A DNA stretch of 33,137 nucleotides from a virus: the IMG/VR virus record IMGVR_UViG_3300031576_001095, positions 1-33,137 of that record; one strand, given 5' to 3'. Made by a program: the position numbers and the translations under genes. The notes below the pieces were generated by a model. That model searched no databases, was not told the origin of the DNA, and worked only from the letters and a program-made list of their open reading frames with translations. This document shows positions 14,881 through 19,444 of the stretch, piece after piece. The first letter of the stretch is position 1. Each line of letters starts with the position of its first letter.

Positions 14881-14888
14881 CCACGTAA
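14881..14888. repeat. Target site duplication, left copy (CCACGTAA)
   Basis: CCACGTAA directly precedes the left inverted repeat and is repeated at 17733-17740 directly after the right one. Eight bases is within the normal range for IS1-family insertion. Confidence 0.88.
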
Positions 14889-14904
14889 GGTAGTGTCCTA
14901 ATTT
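14889..14904. repeat. Left terminal inverted repeat of the IS1-like transposon
   Basis: GGTAGTGTCCTAATTT, a perfect 16-bp inverted match to 17717-17732. The stop codon of the leftmost cargo gene lies inside it. Confidence 0.9.
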
Positions 14905-15410
14905 GCTTTGAGAATCTGGTCCTGGACCTGTCCGACGGTGGCTCCAGCGGGCAGCGATCGCAGTATGGTGATAAGGTCTTCGTAGACCTCGATCCTGATT
15001 TCCTCGCCACGCATGCGCTTACGACGCTGCACGATGCACAATTGTAGTTCGTCCGCCGTCATGGCCCCAATGGGCTGCCAGCGGTGCCTTCCCGCGGCGT
15101 CCTCGTAATGCTCGAAGATCCGAACTTCTACCCTGTCGTTTTTGAATTTGAACGACTTTGTTTGGCGCAGGTAGTCTCGGCCGCGTGTGGCAACGTACTC
15201 CAGAACCAATTTTTCGATCTCCCAATCCTTCGCATCGCGCTTGATTACCTGAAGGACGCCAGCCAGACCCCGGAGGCGTGTTCCGGGAATGCCCGTCCTG
15301 ACCAGGCTGACGATCTCTTTGACTTCAAAGTAGGGTTGTCTGCTGGAGAGATATTCTGCGGCGGCTTGCACATGGGCGTCTATCCGGCCATAGGCCGTCC
15401 ATTTCGCCAT
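14898..15410 (-). CDS. Transposon cargo protein of unknown function, 170 aa
   Basis: Third gene of the cargo operon. I favour the ATG at 15410 (MAKWTAYGRIDAHVQAAAEY), with GGTGG at good distance; a GTG at 15422 would add four residues. The protein looks alpha/beta, with FEVKEIVSLVRTGIPGTRL, a basic middle (RQTKSFKFKNDRVEVRIFEH) and a helical end (EDLITILRSLPAGATVGQV). I see no catalytic motif and do not recognise the family. Its stop (AAT-TAG) is inside the terminal inverted repeat, so the transposon end encodes its last residues. It follows the ParB-like gene by 34 bases and is presumably co-transcribed with it. A nucleic-acid-binding role is a guess from its charge. Confidence 0.7.
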   Translation of the reverse strand: MAKWTAYGRIDAHVQAAAEYLSSRQPYFEVKEIVSLVRTGIPGTRLRGLAGVLQVIKRDAKDWEIEKLVLEYVATRGRDYLRQTKSFKFKNDRVEVRIFEHYEDAAGRHRWQPIGAMTADELQLCIVQRRKRMRGEEIRIEVYEDLITILRSLPAGATVGQVQDQILKAN

Positions 15411-15444
15411 TTCGTGACCCACCCGGCTGTGAGTGTCATGACGT

Positions 15445-16344
15445 TCATTTTACCACGTGCGGCTTGCGGAGCGTCTTCTCAATTTCATGCAGCACGTCCT
15501 GGAGATACCGGATGACCTGAGGCAGTTCTCGGTTGAGATGATCTAGGCGCTTGCGATCTAACCCGGCTATCATCGTCGGCGCTGCCCATCGGACCCGGAC
15601 GCGGCTGAACTCCTCAAGCATACGCCAGAGGGCAATCTCCTTGTCCGACTCCTTCGCCTCCGCGACCTTACGGGCAATCGTTTCGTGGAGAATCGCAGGT
15701 TCCTTCTCCTTCGTCGTGATTGGCTCCGCGCGGCCTTTGAGTAGCGCGCTCCTGAACGACGCTGGCAAGGACTCGTCCCTGATGTTTTGGACCGCTGCCT
15801 TCGTTTCTTTGGCCGTCCACCCTTTCTCTTTGACCACATCCACAAGCACCGAGCGTTGGGCCGCTGGAGCCGCCGCGATGGCGGCCAGGTGCTCATCGGG
15901 CAACGGGGCGGCGTTCGGGACCGACCTGCGGACTTGGTCGGCACGAAGGGTCGTACCAACCGTGTCTTCGCTCAGGTTCAACACTTCGGCAATCTTCACT
16001 GCAGGCCAGTTGGGATGGAGCTGGTGAATCCGGCGGATAGCCTGCCGCTTGTCGTCACCAGTGAGGCGCTTGCCATGCTGCATATTGGCAATGGCAGCAT
16101 ACTCCAGGGCCTCGTTCCTCGTGCCCGTTCTGACCTCGGCGGCAATCTCTTTACGCCCGAGTCGCTCAGCGGCTGCGACGCGATGGAATCCGTCTGCGAG
16201 TAGTAACCCTTCTTTGTTTTTGAAGATCACAACGGGAGGCAGTTTATCGAAGGAGGCCATATACTCCTGGATAAGTTCTTCGTCGTTCCTCTCGCGGACA
16301 CTGATCGTAGGGTCCACGATGATTTCTTGCAATTTCAGCCTCAT
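15445..16344 (-). CDS. ParB/Srx-like nuclease-domain protein with HTH, transposon cargo
   Basis: 299 residues. The N-terminal ~100 residues match the ParB N-terminal domain: VDPTISVRERNDEELIQEYM, LPPVVIFKNKEGLLLADGFH and HRVAAAERLGRKEIAAEV (the G-F-H-R box that binds nucleotide in ParB-like proteins), then ALEYAAIANMQHGKRLTGDD. Residues ~100-140 (RQAIRRIHQLHPNWPAVKIA, EVLNLSEDTVGTTL) are the helix-turn-helix. The C-terminal half is long-helical and may dimerise. ParB-like proteins bind specific DNA and some act in plasmid or transposon maintenance; the role here is unknown. The ATG overlaps the XRE stop (ATGA), so the two are translationally coupled. Confidence 0.85.
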   Translation of the reverse strand: MRLKLQEIIVDPTISVRERNDEELIQEYMASFDKLPPVVIFKNKEGLLLADGFHRVAAAERLGRKEIAAEVRTGTRNEALEYAAIANMQHGKRLTGDDKRQAIRRIHQLHPNWPAVKIAEVLNLSEDTVGTTLRADQVRRSVPNAAPLPDEHLAAIAAAPAAQRSVLVDVVKEKGWTAKETKAAVQNIRDESLPASFRSALLKGRAEPITTKEKEPAILHETIARKVAEAKESDKEIALWRMLEEFSRVRVRWAAPTMIAGLDRKRLDHLNRELPQVIRYLQDVLHEIEKTLRKPHVVK

Positions 16345-16688
16345 TCAGTTCCTCCTCCAAGCAGTGTCTTTTCGTCTACGTTCAAAGCCTTGGCGAGCCG
16401 TACAACCGTGAACCAACGGGGCCGTGTCTTGCCGGTTTCCAAACGATGGATTTCACTTTCGCTGATGCCTGCCATTCCCGACAAGCGTTTCTGTGACAGC
16501 CCACGCATCATACGAATCCGCGACAGGGGCGATCCGGCGCCCAGGTGATCCCTGCGAGGTTTGGCCCACCGGGTTTGGATTGCATGTTGGGAGATCTGCT
16601 TGCGCCGCTCAGGCGTAAGTTTCGCCGTTCGCGCTAGCCCGCCCCTTCTCCCTAGCGCCACCGCCTGCGGATTCTTGTGGCTCTTCAC
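16341..16688 (-). CDS. XRE-family regulator with N-terminal basic GRxGG module, transposon cargo
   Basis: 115 residues, GTG start at 16688. Residues ~5-46 carry a distinctive basic module, KNPQAVALGRRGGLARTAKL, followed by PERRKQISQHAIQTRWAK. Residues ~52-110 are an XRE/Cro-type helix-turn-helix: LSRIRMMRGLSQKRLSGMAG, ISESEIHRLETGKTRPRW, TVVRLAKALNVDEKTLLGG. It is the first gene of the cargo operon. Its own promoter holds an 18-bp palindrome between -35 and -10, and the divergent transposase promoter holds a matching one, so the natural inference is that this protein represses both. The predicted transcription start is at or within a base or two of the GTG, which suggests a leaderless mRNA. 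Confidence 0.88.
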   Translation of the reverse strand: MKSHKNPQAVALGRRGGLARTAKLTPERRKQISQHAIQTRWAKPRRDHLGAGSPLSRIRMMRGLSQKRLSGMAGISESEIHRLETGKTRPRWFTVVRLAKALNVDEKTLLGGGTE

Positions 16689-16694
16689 GCACCT

Positions 16695-16723
16695 ACGATA
16701 CTATCGGCTTAGTATGCTGTCAA
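16695..16723 (-). promoter_or_regulatory. Promoter of the cargo operon (XRE-ParB-unknown)
   Basis: -35 TTGACA (16723-16718, perfect), 17-base spacer, -10 TATCGT (16700-16695, four of six). It points leftwards to the XRE gene, whose GTG is about where transcription should start. Operator O1 overlaps the spacer and the -10 box. Confidence 0.7.
16698..16715. promoter_or_regulatory. Operator O1, palindrome within the cargo promoter
   Basis: ATACTA, six bases (TCGGCT), TAGTAT: a perfect 6-6-6 palindrome located between the -35 and -10 boxes of the leftward promoter. Its centre is exactly 40 bp from that of O2. The site would be blocked when a regulator dimer binds. Confidence 0.72.
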
Positions 16724-16729
16724 GGACCA

Positions 16730-16758
16730 TTGACATTATACTAACCGCTTAGTATAAT
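16730..16758 (+). promoter_or_regulatory. Promoter of the transposase gene, full consensus
   Basis: -35 TTGACA (16730-16735), 17-base spacer, -10 TATAAT (16753-16758): every position matches the sigma-70 consensus. It is back to back with the cargo promoter, the two -35 boxes being six bases apart. Such a strong promoter in front of a transposase is unusual and would normally be tightly repressed. Confidence 0.82.
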
Positions 16759-16759
16759 G
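16734..16759. promoter_or_regulatory. Operator O2, palindrome within the transposase promoter
   Basis: CATTATACTA, six bases (ACCGCT), TAGTATAATG: perfect 10-bp arms. The inner 18 bases (16738-16755) match O1 in both arms, giving a shared core ATACTA-N6-TAGTAT. The site spans the spacer and -10 box of the transposase promoter, so bound protein would exclude RNA polymerase. Confidence 0.78.
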
Positions 16760-16773
16760 CTGACTAGAAGGTA

Positions 16774-16803
16774 CCTCCGACACCGCGCTAACGGTGCCGG
16801 AGG
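16774..16803 (+). promoter_or_regulatory. Strong hairpin in the transposase mRNA leader
   Basis: CCTCCG-A-CACCG, a six-base loop (CGCTAA), CGGTG-C-CGGAGG: an 11-bp GC-rich stem with one A/C mismatch. There is no U tract, so it is not a classic terminator. It lies in a leader of about 130 bases before the transposase ATG and may limit translation, especially from outside transcripts, as in other IS elements. The rest of the leader (16804-16892) holds only short weaker stems. Confidence 0.6.
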
Positions 16804-16892
16804 GGCAAGACCACACTCTAGCGGGTTAGGCCAGAGCGCGGTTGGCTGCCGCCTCCAGTATATGGCCCCCGCTGCAAAACGGGAAGGCCACC

Positions 16893-17717
16893 ATGAACAC
16901 CTTGAAGCGAGAGAAACAGCTTGCAGTCTTATCGGCCCTTCTGGAAGGCTCCAGCGTCCGAAGCATCGAGCGCATGACCGGCGTTCACCGGGATACCATC
17001 CTGCGGCTCATGAACCGCGTCGGCGAGGGATGCCAGCGGCTCATGGATACCCGTATGAAGGGCTTGCCCTGTCAGTTCGTGCAGGTCGATGAAATTTGGA
17101 CCTACGTTGGGAAGAAGCAGAAGCGGGTCAGACCGTGGGATCGCCCCGATATCGGCGATCAGTTTGTTTTCGTGGCGTTAGATGCGGATACGAAGTTGGT
17201 GCCGTGCTTTCTAGTCGGTAGGCGCGATGCGCCCAATGCTGAAACCTTCATGCTGGACCTTGCTCGCCGTATGAAAGGGAGAATCCAACTCACTACAGAC
17301 GGTTTCCGGCCCTATGTCTTGGCCGTCGAGGATGCTTTCGGAGCGAACATAGATTTCGCCCAATTGGTCAAGCTCTATCAAGCCGAAACTCCGAATGAGG
17401 CCCGTTACGCCCCGCCGCGGATCAAGTCCATCACGCCAGCGTTCATCAGTGGCGATCCTTGGCCGGAGCGTATCTCCACATCGTACGTCGAGCGCCAGAA
17501 CCTCACGATCAGGATGCAGGTTCGCAGACTCACCCGCTTGACCAATGCATTCTCCAAGAAACTTCCGAACCTGTGGAATGCTCTGGCTTTGCACTTTGCC
17601 CACTACAACTTCGTGCGGGTTCACTCGACGCTTCGCGTCGCTCCGGCCGTTGCGACGGGTCTAGAAACCTACACTTGGAACCTGGGGCAACTAATCGAGG
17701 CCGCCCTTGCCGCCTGA
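16893..17717 (+). CDS. IS1-family DDE transposase
   Basis: 274 residues in a single frame (no frameshift needed). I chose the ATG at 16893, preceded by GGAAGG. The N-terminal helix-turn-helix reads LLEGSSVRSIERMTGVHRDT with ILRLMNRVG. The catalytic triad is D66 in VQVDEIWTYVGKK, D136 in LTTDGFRPY and E200 in TSYVERQNLTIR, with the usual IS1 C-terminal motif LHFAHYNFVRVHSTLRVAPA. The protein appears complete and functional. Its TGA overlaps the first base of the right inverted repeat. Expression would come from a consensus promoter that carries an operator, so transposition is probably regulated. Confidence 0.92.
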   Translation: MNTLKREKQLAVLSALLEGSSVRSIERMTGVHRDTILRLMNRVGEGCQRLMDTRMKGLPCQFVQVDEIWTYVGKKQKRVRPWDRPDIGDQFVFVALDADTKLVPCFLVGRRDAPNAETFMLDLARRMKGRIQLTTDGFRPYVLAVEDAFGANIDFAQLVKLYQAETPNEARYAPPRIKSITPAFISGDPWPERISTSYVERQNLTIRMQVRRLTRLTNAFSKKLPNLWNALALHFAHYNFVRVHSTLRVAPAVATGLETYTWNLGQLIEAALAA

Positions 17718-17732
17718 AATTAGGACACTACC
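17717..17732. repeat. Right terminal inverted repeat of the IS1-like transposon
   Basis: AAATTAGGACACTACC, exact reverse complement of the left end at 14889-14904. Confidence 0.9.
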
Positions 17733-17740
17733 CCACGTAA
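17733..17740. repeat. Target site duplication, right copy (CCACGTAA)
   Basis: Matches 14881-14888. The next base is the first base of the inverted repeat of the older element at 17741, so insertion occurred precisely at the outer edge of a related element. Confidence 0.88.
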
Positions 17741-17759
17741 GGTAGTGGGTCAATTTGCC
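17741..17759. repeat. Inverted repeat, left end of decayed element
   Basis: GGTAGTGGGTCAATTTGCC. Its reverse complement matches 19426-19444 at 16 of 19 positions, and it begins with the same GGTAGTG as the intact transposon's ends. The remnant transposase stop codon lies inside it. Confidence 0.75.
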
Positions 17760-17884
17760 TTAGCGAGGGCTGCTGACTCCAGTAAAGCTGCGATCTCATC
17801 TACCGACCAGATGTGATCGGCAATCCCTGCGGCCATCGCCGGGGTTATTTTGATCGTTTGGTGGACTCGGCAAAAATTGTACTG
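17750..17884 (-). pseudogene. IS1-family transposase, C-terminal remnant
   Basis: Reading leftwards, an open stretch encodes QYNFCRVHQTIKITPAMAAG followed by IADHIWSVDEIAALLESAAL and AKAN-stop. This is the conserved C-terminus of IS1-family transposases (YNFxRxHxTxxxTPAMxAG...W). It aligns with YNFVRVHSTLRVAPAVATG of the intact transposase but is a different subfamily. Homology ends abruptly near 17885, only a dozen bases before the -35 box of the XRE-ImmA promoter, so the rest of the gene, including the DDE residues, has been lost. Confidence 0.85.
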
Positions 17885-17896
17885 GCTCTCCGGCCA

Positions 17897-17926
17897 TTGA
17901 CAGCAACGGACAATGGCGCTTATATT
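17897..17926 (+). promoter_or_regulatory. Promoter of the XRE-ImmA operon
   Basis: Perfect -35 TTGACA (17897-17902), 18-base spacer, -10 TATATT (17921-17926, five of six). The expected start of transcription is at about 17933-17936, where the ATG of the small leader gene lies, so the mRNA would have almost no leader. The -10 region is a small palindrome, TTATATTATAA. Confidence 0.72.
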
Positions 17927-17935
17927 ATAACCACC

Positions 17936-18013
17936 ATGAGTACAAACTCGCCAGACCCAGATACTATTGATGTTGAGGAGCGCCGCAAGGCCGACACCAA
18001 AGGCGTCGAATGA
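17936..18013 (+). CDS. Short peptide (25 aa) coupled to the XRE-ImmA gene
   Basis: MSTNSPDPDTIDVEERRKAD followed by TKGVE, an acidic peptide with no motif. Its stop overlaps the next ATG (ATGA) and it begins directly at the predicted transcription start. It may be a leader that couples translation of the regulator rather than a functional protein. A longer frame from 17813 would run back through the promoter and is rejected. Confidence 0.45.
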   Translation: MSTNSPDPDTIDVEERRKADTKGVE

Positions 18014-19131
18014 TCAGCGGGGAGCGGGTAAGGTTCGCGCGGGAATTCCGCGGCCTGACCCAAACGGACTTGGCCAGGCAGATCGGGGTTACACAGCCAG
18101 CCATCGCCCAGATTGAAGGGGGATTCAAGCAGCCATCTGGCACAGTCCTTGAAGCATTGGCCCTGAAGACAGGTTTCCCGCTGGCGTTCTTTCGACAGGC
18201 CGATCCTCCAGACTTTCCGTTGGGTTCACTGCTCTTTCGTTCTCAAGCGGCGTTTACTAGCCGCGAACGATCAAGGGTGTTTCGTTATGGGCAACTCGCC
18301 TATGAGTTGGTGGAGCGTCTATTGGCTCCGCGCGTGAAGCGACCAGCCGTTCGATTGCCCAAACTGGAAAGAGTGCCTATCAAAGACGCAGCGACCCTGA
18401 CGCGCGATGCGTTGGGTCTTCCACCGCACCAGCCTATCGCCAACCTCACAGATGCCGCCGAAAGAGCCGGCGTCCTGGTTGTCATGCTCCCGACACCCAT
18501 AGAGAAAGGCGATGCCTTTTCTGCGTGGACGGCGCTGCAAGAGCCGACACCAATGATTGCGATAGGATCGGGCACGCCTGGAGACCGCGCCCGCATGAGT
18601 ATGGCCCACGAATTGGCAGAACTGGTCTTACACCATTCCATTCGGGGGCGGCTTGACGAGATGGAGCGGGATGCCAATCGGTTTGCCGCTGAACTTCTCA
18701 TGCCAGAGGAAGCAATCCGTCAGGAAATCACACCTCCGGTCACGCTGACGCAGATCGCACGGCTCAAACCTCGCTGGAGAGTTTCAATTCAGGCTTTGGT
18801 CAGGCGCGCATACGATTTGGAGATTGTCACGCGGCGTCAGTATACCTACCTGTTCGAGCAGATCGGCGGCATGGGCTGGAGACTCAAGGAGCCGGAGAAT
18901 CTCAACATTCCAGCGGAAAGAGCGCGGGGATTGCGAAAGATGATCGAAGTCCTATATGGCAACCCTCCCAACTACACGCGCCTAGCCACCGATGCGCGAC
19001 TCACAGTCCATGTCGTGCGGAAATTCATCGAAGCGCAAGCGGAATGGCCGACCGATCGGTCAACGGACCTCGATCAAACAGATGCGGCACCAACCGTCAT
19101 TTCCATCGAATCCAGGCGCAAGATTCACTGA
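18010..19131 (+). CDS. XRE regulator fused to ImmA/IrrE-like peptidase domain, HExxH motif degenerate
   Basis: 373 residues. Residues ~5-60 are an XRE helix-turn-helix (VRFAREFRGLTQTDLARQIG, VTQPAIAQIEGGFKQPS). A middle region follows, then the ImmA/IrrE (DUF955) domain with MSMAHELAELVLHHSIRG at ~196-213 and DEMERDANRFAAELLMPEEA. In active relatives the motif is HExxH; here it reads HELAE, so the second zinc His is Glu, with HH four residues on. The typical C-terminal helical region (RWRVSIQALVRRAYDLEIVT) follows. Such proteins cleave or antagonise repressors of mobile elements and stress or toxin systems. This copy may be inactive or bind DNA only. It could also have been adopted as the phage's regulator. 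Confidence 0.88.
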   Translation: MISGERVRFAREFRGLTQTDLARQIGVTQPAIAQIEGGFKQPSGTVLEALALKTGFPLAFFRQADPPDFPLGSLLFRSQAAFTSRERSRVFRYGQLAYELVERLLAPRVKRPAVRLPKLERVPIKDAATLTRDALGLPPHQPIANLTDAAERAGVLVVMLPTPIEKGDAFSAWTALQEPTPMIAIGSGTPGDRARMSMAHELAELVLHHSIRGRLDEMERDANRFAAELLMPEEAIRQEITPPVTLTQIARLKPRWRVSIQALVRRAYDLEIVTRRQYTYLFEQIGGMGWRLKEPENLNIPAERARGLRKMIEVLYGNPPNYTRLATDARLTVHVVRKFIEAQAEWPTDRSTDLDQTDAAPTVISIESRRKIH

Positions 19132-19367
19132 ACCTGCTTCCAGCGAGCACGGGCGGCGAGTTTGGCTATCTCCCTCCGGCGTCGCGCACTCAGTTTCTTC
19201 GCCCGCGCAGGACCGCCTTTCTTGCCGCCCAACCGTCCCAGTTCGACAGCAGCCGGGTTCTTTGGCGAGGCCGGAGTTGGCTCCTCGTCGCCGGTAGCCT
19301 TTGCCACAATAGACGCAGCCAGCCGATTGATGTCTTCGGGACCACGCTTGCTTGACCGCTTTGGCAT
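19125..19367 (-). CDS. Small basic protein with GRxGG module, 80 aa
   Basis: MPKRSSKRGPEDINRLAASI starts a short helical N-terminus, then KNPAAVELGRLGGKKGGPAR and AKKLSARRRREIAKLAARAR ending WKQVQ. The C-terminal two thirds share the pattern N-P-x-A-V-x-L-G-R-x-G-G...K-L-x-x-x-R-R-x-x-I-x-x-x-A-x-x-x-RW with the N-terminus of the XRE regulator of the adjacent transposon. It is convergent with the XRE-ImmA gene and overlaps its end by 7 bases. A perfect palindrome covers its start codon. Likely a DNA- or RNA-binding partner of XRE-type regulators; function unknown. Confidence 0.78.
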   Translation of the reverse strand: MPKRSSKRGPEDINRLAASIVAKATGDEEPTPASPKNPAAVELGRLGGKKGGPARAKKLSARRRREIAKLAARARWKQVQ

Positions 19368-19382
19368 ACCTTGAGTATGCCA
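19362..19382. promoter_or_regulatory. Palindromic operator-like site over the start of the 80-aa gene
   Basis: TGGCATAC, five bases (CTTGA), GTATGCCA: perfect 8-bp arms. It covers the ATG at 19367, so a bound protein would block transcription or translation initiation of the 80-residue gene. It may be the target of the XRE-ImmA protein or of the small protein itself. It does not share sequence with O1/O2. Confidence 0.6.
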
Positions 19383-19425
19383 CGCCCGTCTATGCTTGCC
19401 TAGTCATTCCCTCCTCTTGGCCGAG

Positions 19426-19444
19426 TGGAAAATGACCCACTACC
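19426..19444. repeat. Inverted repeat, right end of decayed element
   Basis: Ends in TGACCCACTACC, matching the left end at 17741-17759 in inverted orientation with three mismatches over 19 bases. Phage early-operon DNA resumes after it. Confidence 0.68.

Follow-up and report, generated by a model that had tools for sequence, protein, structure and literature searches.

A cargo-carrying IS1-type transposon in a phage genome, with operator-like palindromes in its putative divergent promoters

The DNA analysed here, referred to below as the window, is a stretch of 33,137 nucleotides from a virus (IMG/VR record IMGVR_UViG_3300031576_001095), and is a phage record, with genes for a major head protein, portal, terminase, integrase and replication. 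Within it lies a transposable element of 2844 bp (14889–17732) whose 16-bp inverted repeats match perfectly and which is flanked by an 8-bp target duplication. The terminal inverted repeat, GGTAGTGTCCTAATTT, is present at 14889–14904 (+ strand) and 17717–17732 (– strand) with 16 of 16 bases paired, and the duplication CCACGTAA is found at 14881–14888 on the left and at 17733–17740 on the right, where it abuts the end of a second element. An earlier note on this DNA, written from the sequence alone, had described perfect 16-bp ends with an 8-bp duplication, and an intact DDE transposase with three opposite-strand genes in 2.84 kb, all of which was borne out; its limits of 14881–17740 hold for the element together with both duplications and not for the element itself. 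Absent from it were the phage contig, the abutting decayed element and two operator-like palindromes. The duplication on its two sides is evidence that the element once inserted as a whole unit. A second copy was not found, and the nearest phage by terminase (63%, locus L274) does not give the exact empty site, other genes being located upstream there.

The transposase gene (16893–17717, + strand) encodes a protein of 274 amino acids in one uninterrupted frame with no stop codons. The cargo consists of three genes that all read along the minus strand, opposite to the transposase, with little space between them: cargo gene 1 (16341–16688) encodes an XRE-type regulator of 115 amino acids; cargo gene 2 (15445–16344), which overlaps the regulator gene by 4 bp, encodes a protein of 299 amino acids with a ParB-like N-terminal domain and a helix-turn-helix (HTH); and cargo gene 3 (14898–15422) encodes a 174-amino-acid protein with no family assigned, and has its stop codon inside the left inverted repeat.

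The transposase is matched by the Pfam family PF03400 (DDE_Tnp_IS1) at 25.5 bits (cut-off 24.1), and by the NCBIfam IS1 equivalog NF033558 at 65.4 bits, below the cut-off of 100. Residues D66, D136 and E200 are invariant across nine aligned sequences, the window's included, and plasmid relatives with about 45% identity are annotated as 'IS1 family transposase'. No Pfam model for an IS1595/ISXO2-type transposase domain was present among its matches at E-values up to 1. The IS1 family is characterized by an 8–9 bp target duplication and GG...TG ends, both of which are found in the window's element. In classical IS1, the InsA and InsB frames are joined by a –1 frameshift, an arrangement that is absent in part of the family too, and that the single-frame transposase of the window does not have. 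The window's transposase is a divergent IS1-type enzyme in a single frame. Upstream of the transposase in two related loci are cysteine-rich stretches, partly in another frame (L105, 7772–8005, and L224, upstream of the match), which look like the zinc finger found in classical IS1; the L105/L224 branch may have a fusion made by frameshifting.

Two 18-bp palindromes, 89% alike, are located between the start of the regulator gene (16688, – strand) and the start of the transposase gene (16893, + strand), compared to none expected in 100 shuffles. Each occupies the 17-nt spacer of one promoter-like sequence. Palindrome 1 (ATACTATCGGCTTAGTAT, 16698–16715) lies in the spacer of TTGACA-17-TATCGT (16695–16723, – strand, 10/12 consensus), directed into the cargo operon, and palindrome 2 (ATACTAACCGCTTAGTAT, 16738–16755, with a full dyad at 16734–16759) in that of TTGACA-17-TATAAT (16730–16758, + strand, 12/12 consensus), directed towards the transposase. 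The cargo start codon is 6 nt beyond the second hexamer, so the message would be leaderless. The transposase gene is preceded by a structured leader (16765–16892, + strand), the fold of 16765–16900 having an energy of –58.6 kcal/mol and a z-score of –2.98.

The regulator is matched by Pfam HTH_31 at 49.2 bits. A profile for C1, an accessory protein of the relatives described below, was built without the window's sequences and matched residues 6–48 of the XRE open frame (44.6 bits, E = 3e-11); the gene encodes C1 (residues ~1–48) fused to an XRE-type HTH (~55–110), and this protein is called C1-XRE here. The ParB-like protein gave weak matches in NCBIfam, below cut-off, and in the PDB it weakly matched ParB/Spo0J (E = 3e-4); its relatives in plasmids, phages and genomes cover at most ~60%, mostly the ParB domain, and no viral relative was found. 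For the 174-amino-acid protein, no relative was found in plasmids, phages, viral contigs or the surveyed loci, and a structure prediction made without relatives was of no use (mean pLDDT, the predicted local distance difference test score, of 46). A 36-residue fragment with stops (E = 0.008, from 297 genomes of one phylum) was judged a chance match to it. Neither protein matched a toxin family in the libraries searched, Pfam, NCBIfam and PADLOC among them, and the cargo has no recognizable toxin beside its HTH protein, as a type II toxin–antitoxin system would. No ParA-type match was found among the subset of window genes scanned with Pfam or PHROGs.

Relatives of the element were collected by scanning genome contigs with a nine-sequence profile (at least 560 relatives, the best 80 loci examined) and from viral contigs (145 relatives, 77 distinct loci examined). 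Across all loci collected, the usable set was 176 transposase copies in 170 loci, each with more than 180 aligned residues. A copy was considered delimited if its two ends agreed at 12 or more of 16 bases, had a GGTAGTG-like tip and were flanked by an 8-bp duplication without mismatch. This was the case for 111 copies, and after removal of 10 repeats, 101 distinct elements remained, the window's included, spanning 1867–8526 bp with a median of 3083 bp. For the other 65 copies no 8-bp duplication was called, and any of these that have a convincing end pair span at least 1651 bp. The 6161-bp call for L178 probably covers one element nested in another or a composite, because its contig also contains an element of 3028 bp flanked by a 9-bp duplication (L026). 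At 32 of 202 element ends, the outermost gene takes its stop codon from the inverted repeat (the window's included; open reading frames (ORFs) of at least 75 amino acids), always 12 nt from the tip and usually as Asn-stop. The lineage is found in Acidobacteria, Verrucomicrobia, Deltaproteobacteria, alphaproteobacterial plasmids and phages; copy number is low (1–4 in 8 genomes), and a match was present in only 5 of 240 genomes of one phylum.

Plain IS1 is ~0.8 kb in length and carries no cargo, and no cargo-free element of this size with the present transposase was found among the 176 copies. The earlier note had regarded the window's element as an oddity among cargo-free IS1 elements; it belongs instead to a lineage that yielded no plain copy, and insertion sequences with cargo have already been named as a class in the available text of PMC3129680. 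The note had also proposed that the three cargo genes probably serve the element itself, naming copies of the transposon ends that never contain them as evidence to the contrary. This is what the survey returned: no other element holds the trio, and the ParB-like and 174-amino-acid proteins have no counterpart in other elements, so the trio is not a constant part, and only the C1 motif of the regulator recurs.

The cargo of the relatives is varied, and includes restriction-modification, toxin–antitoxin, ImmA regulator and protease genes. ORFs were chosen by length, without a gene finder, and family searches covered 211 of the 246 cargo ORFs of at least 100 amino acids, including the three window proteins; the other 35 were judged by eye to be antisense or spurious and were left out. 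Pfam matches included M78/ImmA (8), P63C (6), SocA/Panacea (5), ClpP/SDH-type proteases (4), N6/N4 methylases (3), GmrSD (2), PIN (2), PIN_10 (1), PemK (1), Tsp45I (1), MmeI (1), IGPS (2) and dCTP-deaminase-like proteins (2). By eye, the cargo of L003 includes a cytosine methylase, a Vsr-type nuclease and an HNH protein, and the three elements in a single genome (G006) have three different cargoes and three different duplications. PADLOC was applied to the 211 cargo ORFs and to a flank control of 140 ORFs drawn at random from 518, one window ORF being removed by hand; the comparison gave no separation for methyltransferases, and ImmA-type RmrA models appeared on the cargo side only, among the top 25 models listed, for which no enrichment is claimed. 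A RES/Xre toxin–antitoxin pair beside an Acidiphilium plasmid copy is beyond the limits of the element there and was left out of the cargo. Homologues of indole-3-glycerol-phosphate synthase (TrpC) were observed as cargo in viral contigs (L004, 4613–5617; L178, 6563–7420).

Three small proteins recur in the lineage: C1 (~80 amino acids, with the motif GRLGGLKGGKARA...RW), C2 (~100) and C3 (~63, weakly ribbon-helix-helix-like). Of the 101 elements, 38 carry C1 without the other two, another 38 carry C2 and/or C3 without C1, 3 combine the two kinds and 22 lack all three, a near-exclusivity between C1 and C2/C3 with a Fisher p-value of 7e-9, from which kinship was not removed. On a transposase tree with 101 rows, the C1 labels require 7 changes, compared to 30.7 when shuffled, and one starred clade of 43 rows has C1 in 36. 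Because the labels are near-exclusive and clustered on the tree, the accessories go with the transposase and the other cargo is exchanged. The C1 gene is near the element end (median 59 bp), on the same strand as the transposase in 36 of 42 matches; in a Mesorhizobium plasmid copy, the gene in its place is annotated as 'histone H1'. The predicted structure of C2, obtained from relatives, the window having no C2, is a helix, four strands and a helix (pLDDT 94), with no PDB match at an E-value of 0.001 or better, and no Pfam family was above cut-off for the three members scanned; C2 may represent a fold family that is new and bound to this group of transposons. The C2 set consists of L103 (8813–9124) and 37 other ORFs, of which 32 of the 38 were aligned. 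Six short elements (0.5–1.1 kb; L015, L022, L047, L049, L063 and L078) have the same ends, no intact transposase and other open frames, and we therefore regard them as non-autonomous mobile cassettes. By eye, their open frames include C2- and C3-like ones.

The arrangement of a promoter overlapped by a palindrome recurs in the lineage, being present in 23 of 101 transposase upstream regions, compared to 9 of 526 regions upstream of other, flanking genes (p = 5e-13, without correction for kinship) and 6 of 303 random windows. In elements with C1, the palindrome is close to ATGCTTGANCGNTCAAGCAT: at least 13 of 18 positions agree in 20 of the 41 elements with C1 and in none of the other 60. This consensus was derived from the same transposase upstream regions that were later counted, and only the comparisons with the non-C1 elements and with the upstream regions of C1 genes are independent, because it was written from the C1 upstreams. 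The sequence ATGCTTGACCGCTCAAGCAT is named beside the window's two operator-like palindromes as a candidate C1 target. One relative, L224, has the layout of the window: its C1 gene is divergent, and its two palindromes are separated by 43 bp.

The intact element is adjoined on its right by a second one from this lineage, which has decayed (17741–19444). The ends of the decayed element are GGTAGTGGGTCAATTT and the complement of this sequence with one mismatch, and no matching duplication was found for it. It contains a C-terminal transposase remnant (17789–17887, – strand), an XRE-ImmA (M78 peptidase) regulator as cargo (18010–19131, + strand) and an intact C1 accessory gene (19128–19403, – strand; 100.9 bits, E = 9e-29, with the profile built without window sequences). 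The second element is older than the intact one, and the apparent phage XRE-ImmA regulator is transposon cargo, because it lies inside this element. The right duplication of the intact element coincides with the 8 bp that immediately precede the end of the second, and such a distance of exactly 8 bp from another related end was observed for 3 of the 101 elements (window, 14889; L138, 2723–10324; L157, 5697), compared to 0.27 cases expected by chance. In L138, both adjoining elements share the duplication AATATTAG. The three cases suggest that sites beside the ends of relatives may be liked as targets.

The window's element is a complete and probably mobile IS1-type insertion sequence with passenger genes. 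We hypothesize that C1-XRE binds the two 18-bp palindromes in the spacers of the divergent promoters and, when bound, would shut both its own operon and the transposase promoter in the style of phage immunity. Such repression would keep an established element quiet and leave a newly arrived one briefly active: upon entry into a repressor-free cell, the near-consensus promoters would fire, giving a zygotic burst of transposition until the repressor builds up. A phage would be an apt vehicle for reaching such naive cells. The ParB-like and 174-amino-acid genes would be co-expressed with the regulator, most likely as an addiction, defence or DNA-binding module aiding persistence; this is the weakest step of the proposal, and a persistence module is favoured over a catalytic role for these two proteins as the least certain of our conclusions. 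Taken together, a mobile cargo transposon in a phage, from a lineage that carries cargo in every copy found, with C1-XRE repressing operon and transposase and its partners aiding persistence, is the account that we consider probable. The suggestion of the earlier note that the regulator controls movement has gained from the palindrome inside the transposase promoter and from the recurrence of this design, and is to be read as probable only. A broader version is offered tentatively, as possible but somewhat doubtful in its entirety: an IS1-type lineage has turned into a cargo vehicle with phage-like immunity, in which the accessories are kept, the operator sits in the transposase promoter of the C1 branch and bursts occur in naive cells, including via phages, the C1-XRE of the window also driving a new persistence module.

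Several observations weigh against this proposal. The window's transposase falls in a starred clade of 18 rows, 15 of which lack C1, C2 and C3, and the window's regulator may accordingly have been acquired separately. The window's palindrome departs from the consensus of the C1 lineage in the outer bases, and an operator upstream of the C1 gene itself is rare (4 of 41, with 0 in 800 shuffles). The p-value of the palindrome test is too small, because the sequences are shared by descent. The structured leader of the transposase, ~130 nt long, could point to post-transcriptional control. For the cargo, methyltransferases were also present in 2 of the 140 flank ORFs, so that no enrichment of restriction-modification genes is claimed.

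The cargo could instead be an ordinary toxin–antitoxin or defence passenger that is autoregulated and serves the host or the retention of the element, the operator in the transposase promoter being a side effect of divergent packing. The three genes are indeed tightly packed and co-directional, the XRE part resembles HigA/HipB-type antitoxins and C proteins, and other elements of the lineage gave matches to ImmA regulators, SocA, PIN and PemK. However, neither the ParB-like nor the 174-amino-acid protein matches a toxin family in the libraries searched, the transposase promoter is closer to consensus than the cargo promoter and contains its own perfect palindrome, and the same promoter design is found in relatives without XRE cargo; we consider this explanation unlikely. 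Less likely still, and very improbable, is that the trio represents phage genes for immunity or partition that a pair of ends happened to enclose in a one-off capture. The location of the element in a phage genome and the lack of another copy of the trio would fit such an event, but no phage record was found to contain the trio, ~40% of the delimited elements, bacterial as well as phage-borne, have the C1 motif, and the last cargo gene ends inside the repeat, as genes do at 31 other ends of the 202.

A further explanation assigns the ParB-like protein a part in transposition, in which it would bind the ends or the target (sites next to the ends of relatives), or spread on DNA and protect the element. 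Its ParB/Spo0J-type domain with an HTH, and the excess of elements placed exactly 8 bp from a related end, would fit such a role; for the other abutting elements, L138 and L157, no ParB relative was found in the search of the surveyed loci. We consider this explanation quite improbable.

Insertion sequences by definition carry transposition genes only, and a widespread IS1-type lineage in which no cargo-free copy was found blurs this definition. The lineage offers a simple one-transposase vehicle for restriction-modification and toxin–antitoxin genes, with regulators that are directly testable, and a palindrome within a perfect promoter opens the question of how a tiny transposon limits its own movement to a reporter assay.

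Compared to the IS1 family, the window's element has the PF03400 match, the 8-bp duplications and the GG...TG ends in common, and its lineage differs in being single-frame and 1.65–8.5 kb in size with cargo. The ISMhu11 subgroup in ISfinder contains single-frame IS1-type elements of up to ~4.6 kb, and is probably the nearest named group. The transporter IS (tIS) is reportedly due to Siguier, Gagnevin and Chandler in 2009. In the available text of PMC3129680 and PMC9330008, it is a named class of insertion sequences with passenger genes unrelated to transposition. The window's element resembles a tIS in its intact ends, its transposase and the passenger genes inside; it differs in that cargo is the rule across the transposase lineage, with accessory regulators and promoter operators. 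While insertion sequences with passengers are known, no description of an IS1-type lineage with obligate cargo, of its lineage-bound accessory genes or of operators in a transposase promoter was found in the literature searched.

Toxin–antitoxin passengers of Tn3-family transposons have been proposed to act in transposition control, according to PMC7157771. The likeness lies in passenger regulatory genes with a proposed role in transposition control, and the difference in the transposase family, the genes and the location of the palindromes, here inside the transposase promoter. Tn7-like transposons carry varied cargo including defence and toxin–antitoxin genes, as stated in PMC8649781. Varied cargo of these kinds is also found in the window's lineage, whose machinery differs in being of the single-gene IS1 type and only a few kb in size. 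The lambdoid immunity region has divergent promoters, a shared operator sequence, an HTH repressor and a leaderless repressor transcript. The window's element is similar in its divergent promoters, shared operator-like sequence, HTH regulator and predicted leaderless transcript, and differs in that the proposed object of control is a transposase in place of lytic genes.

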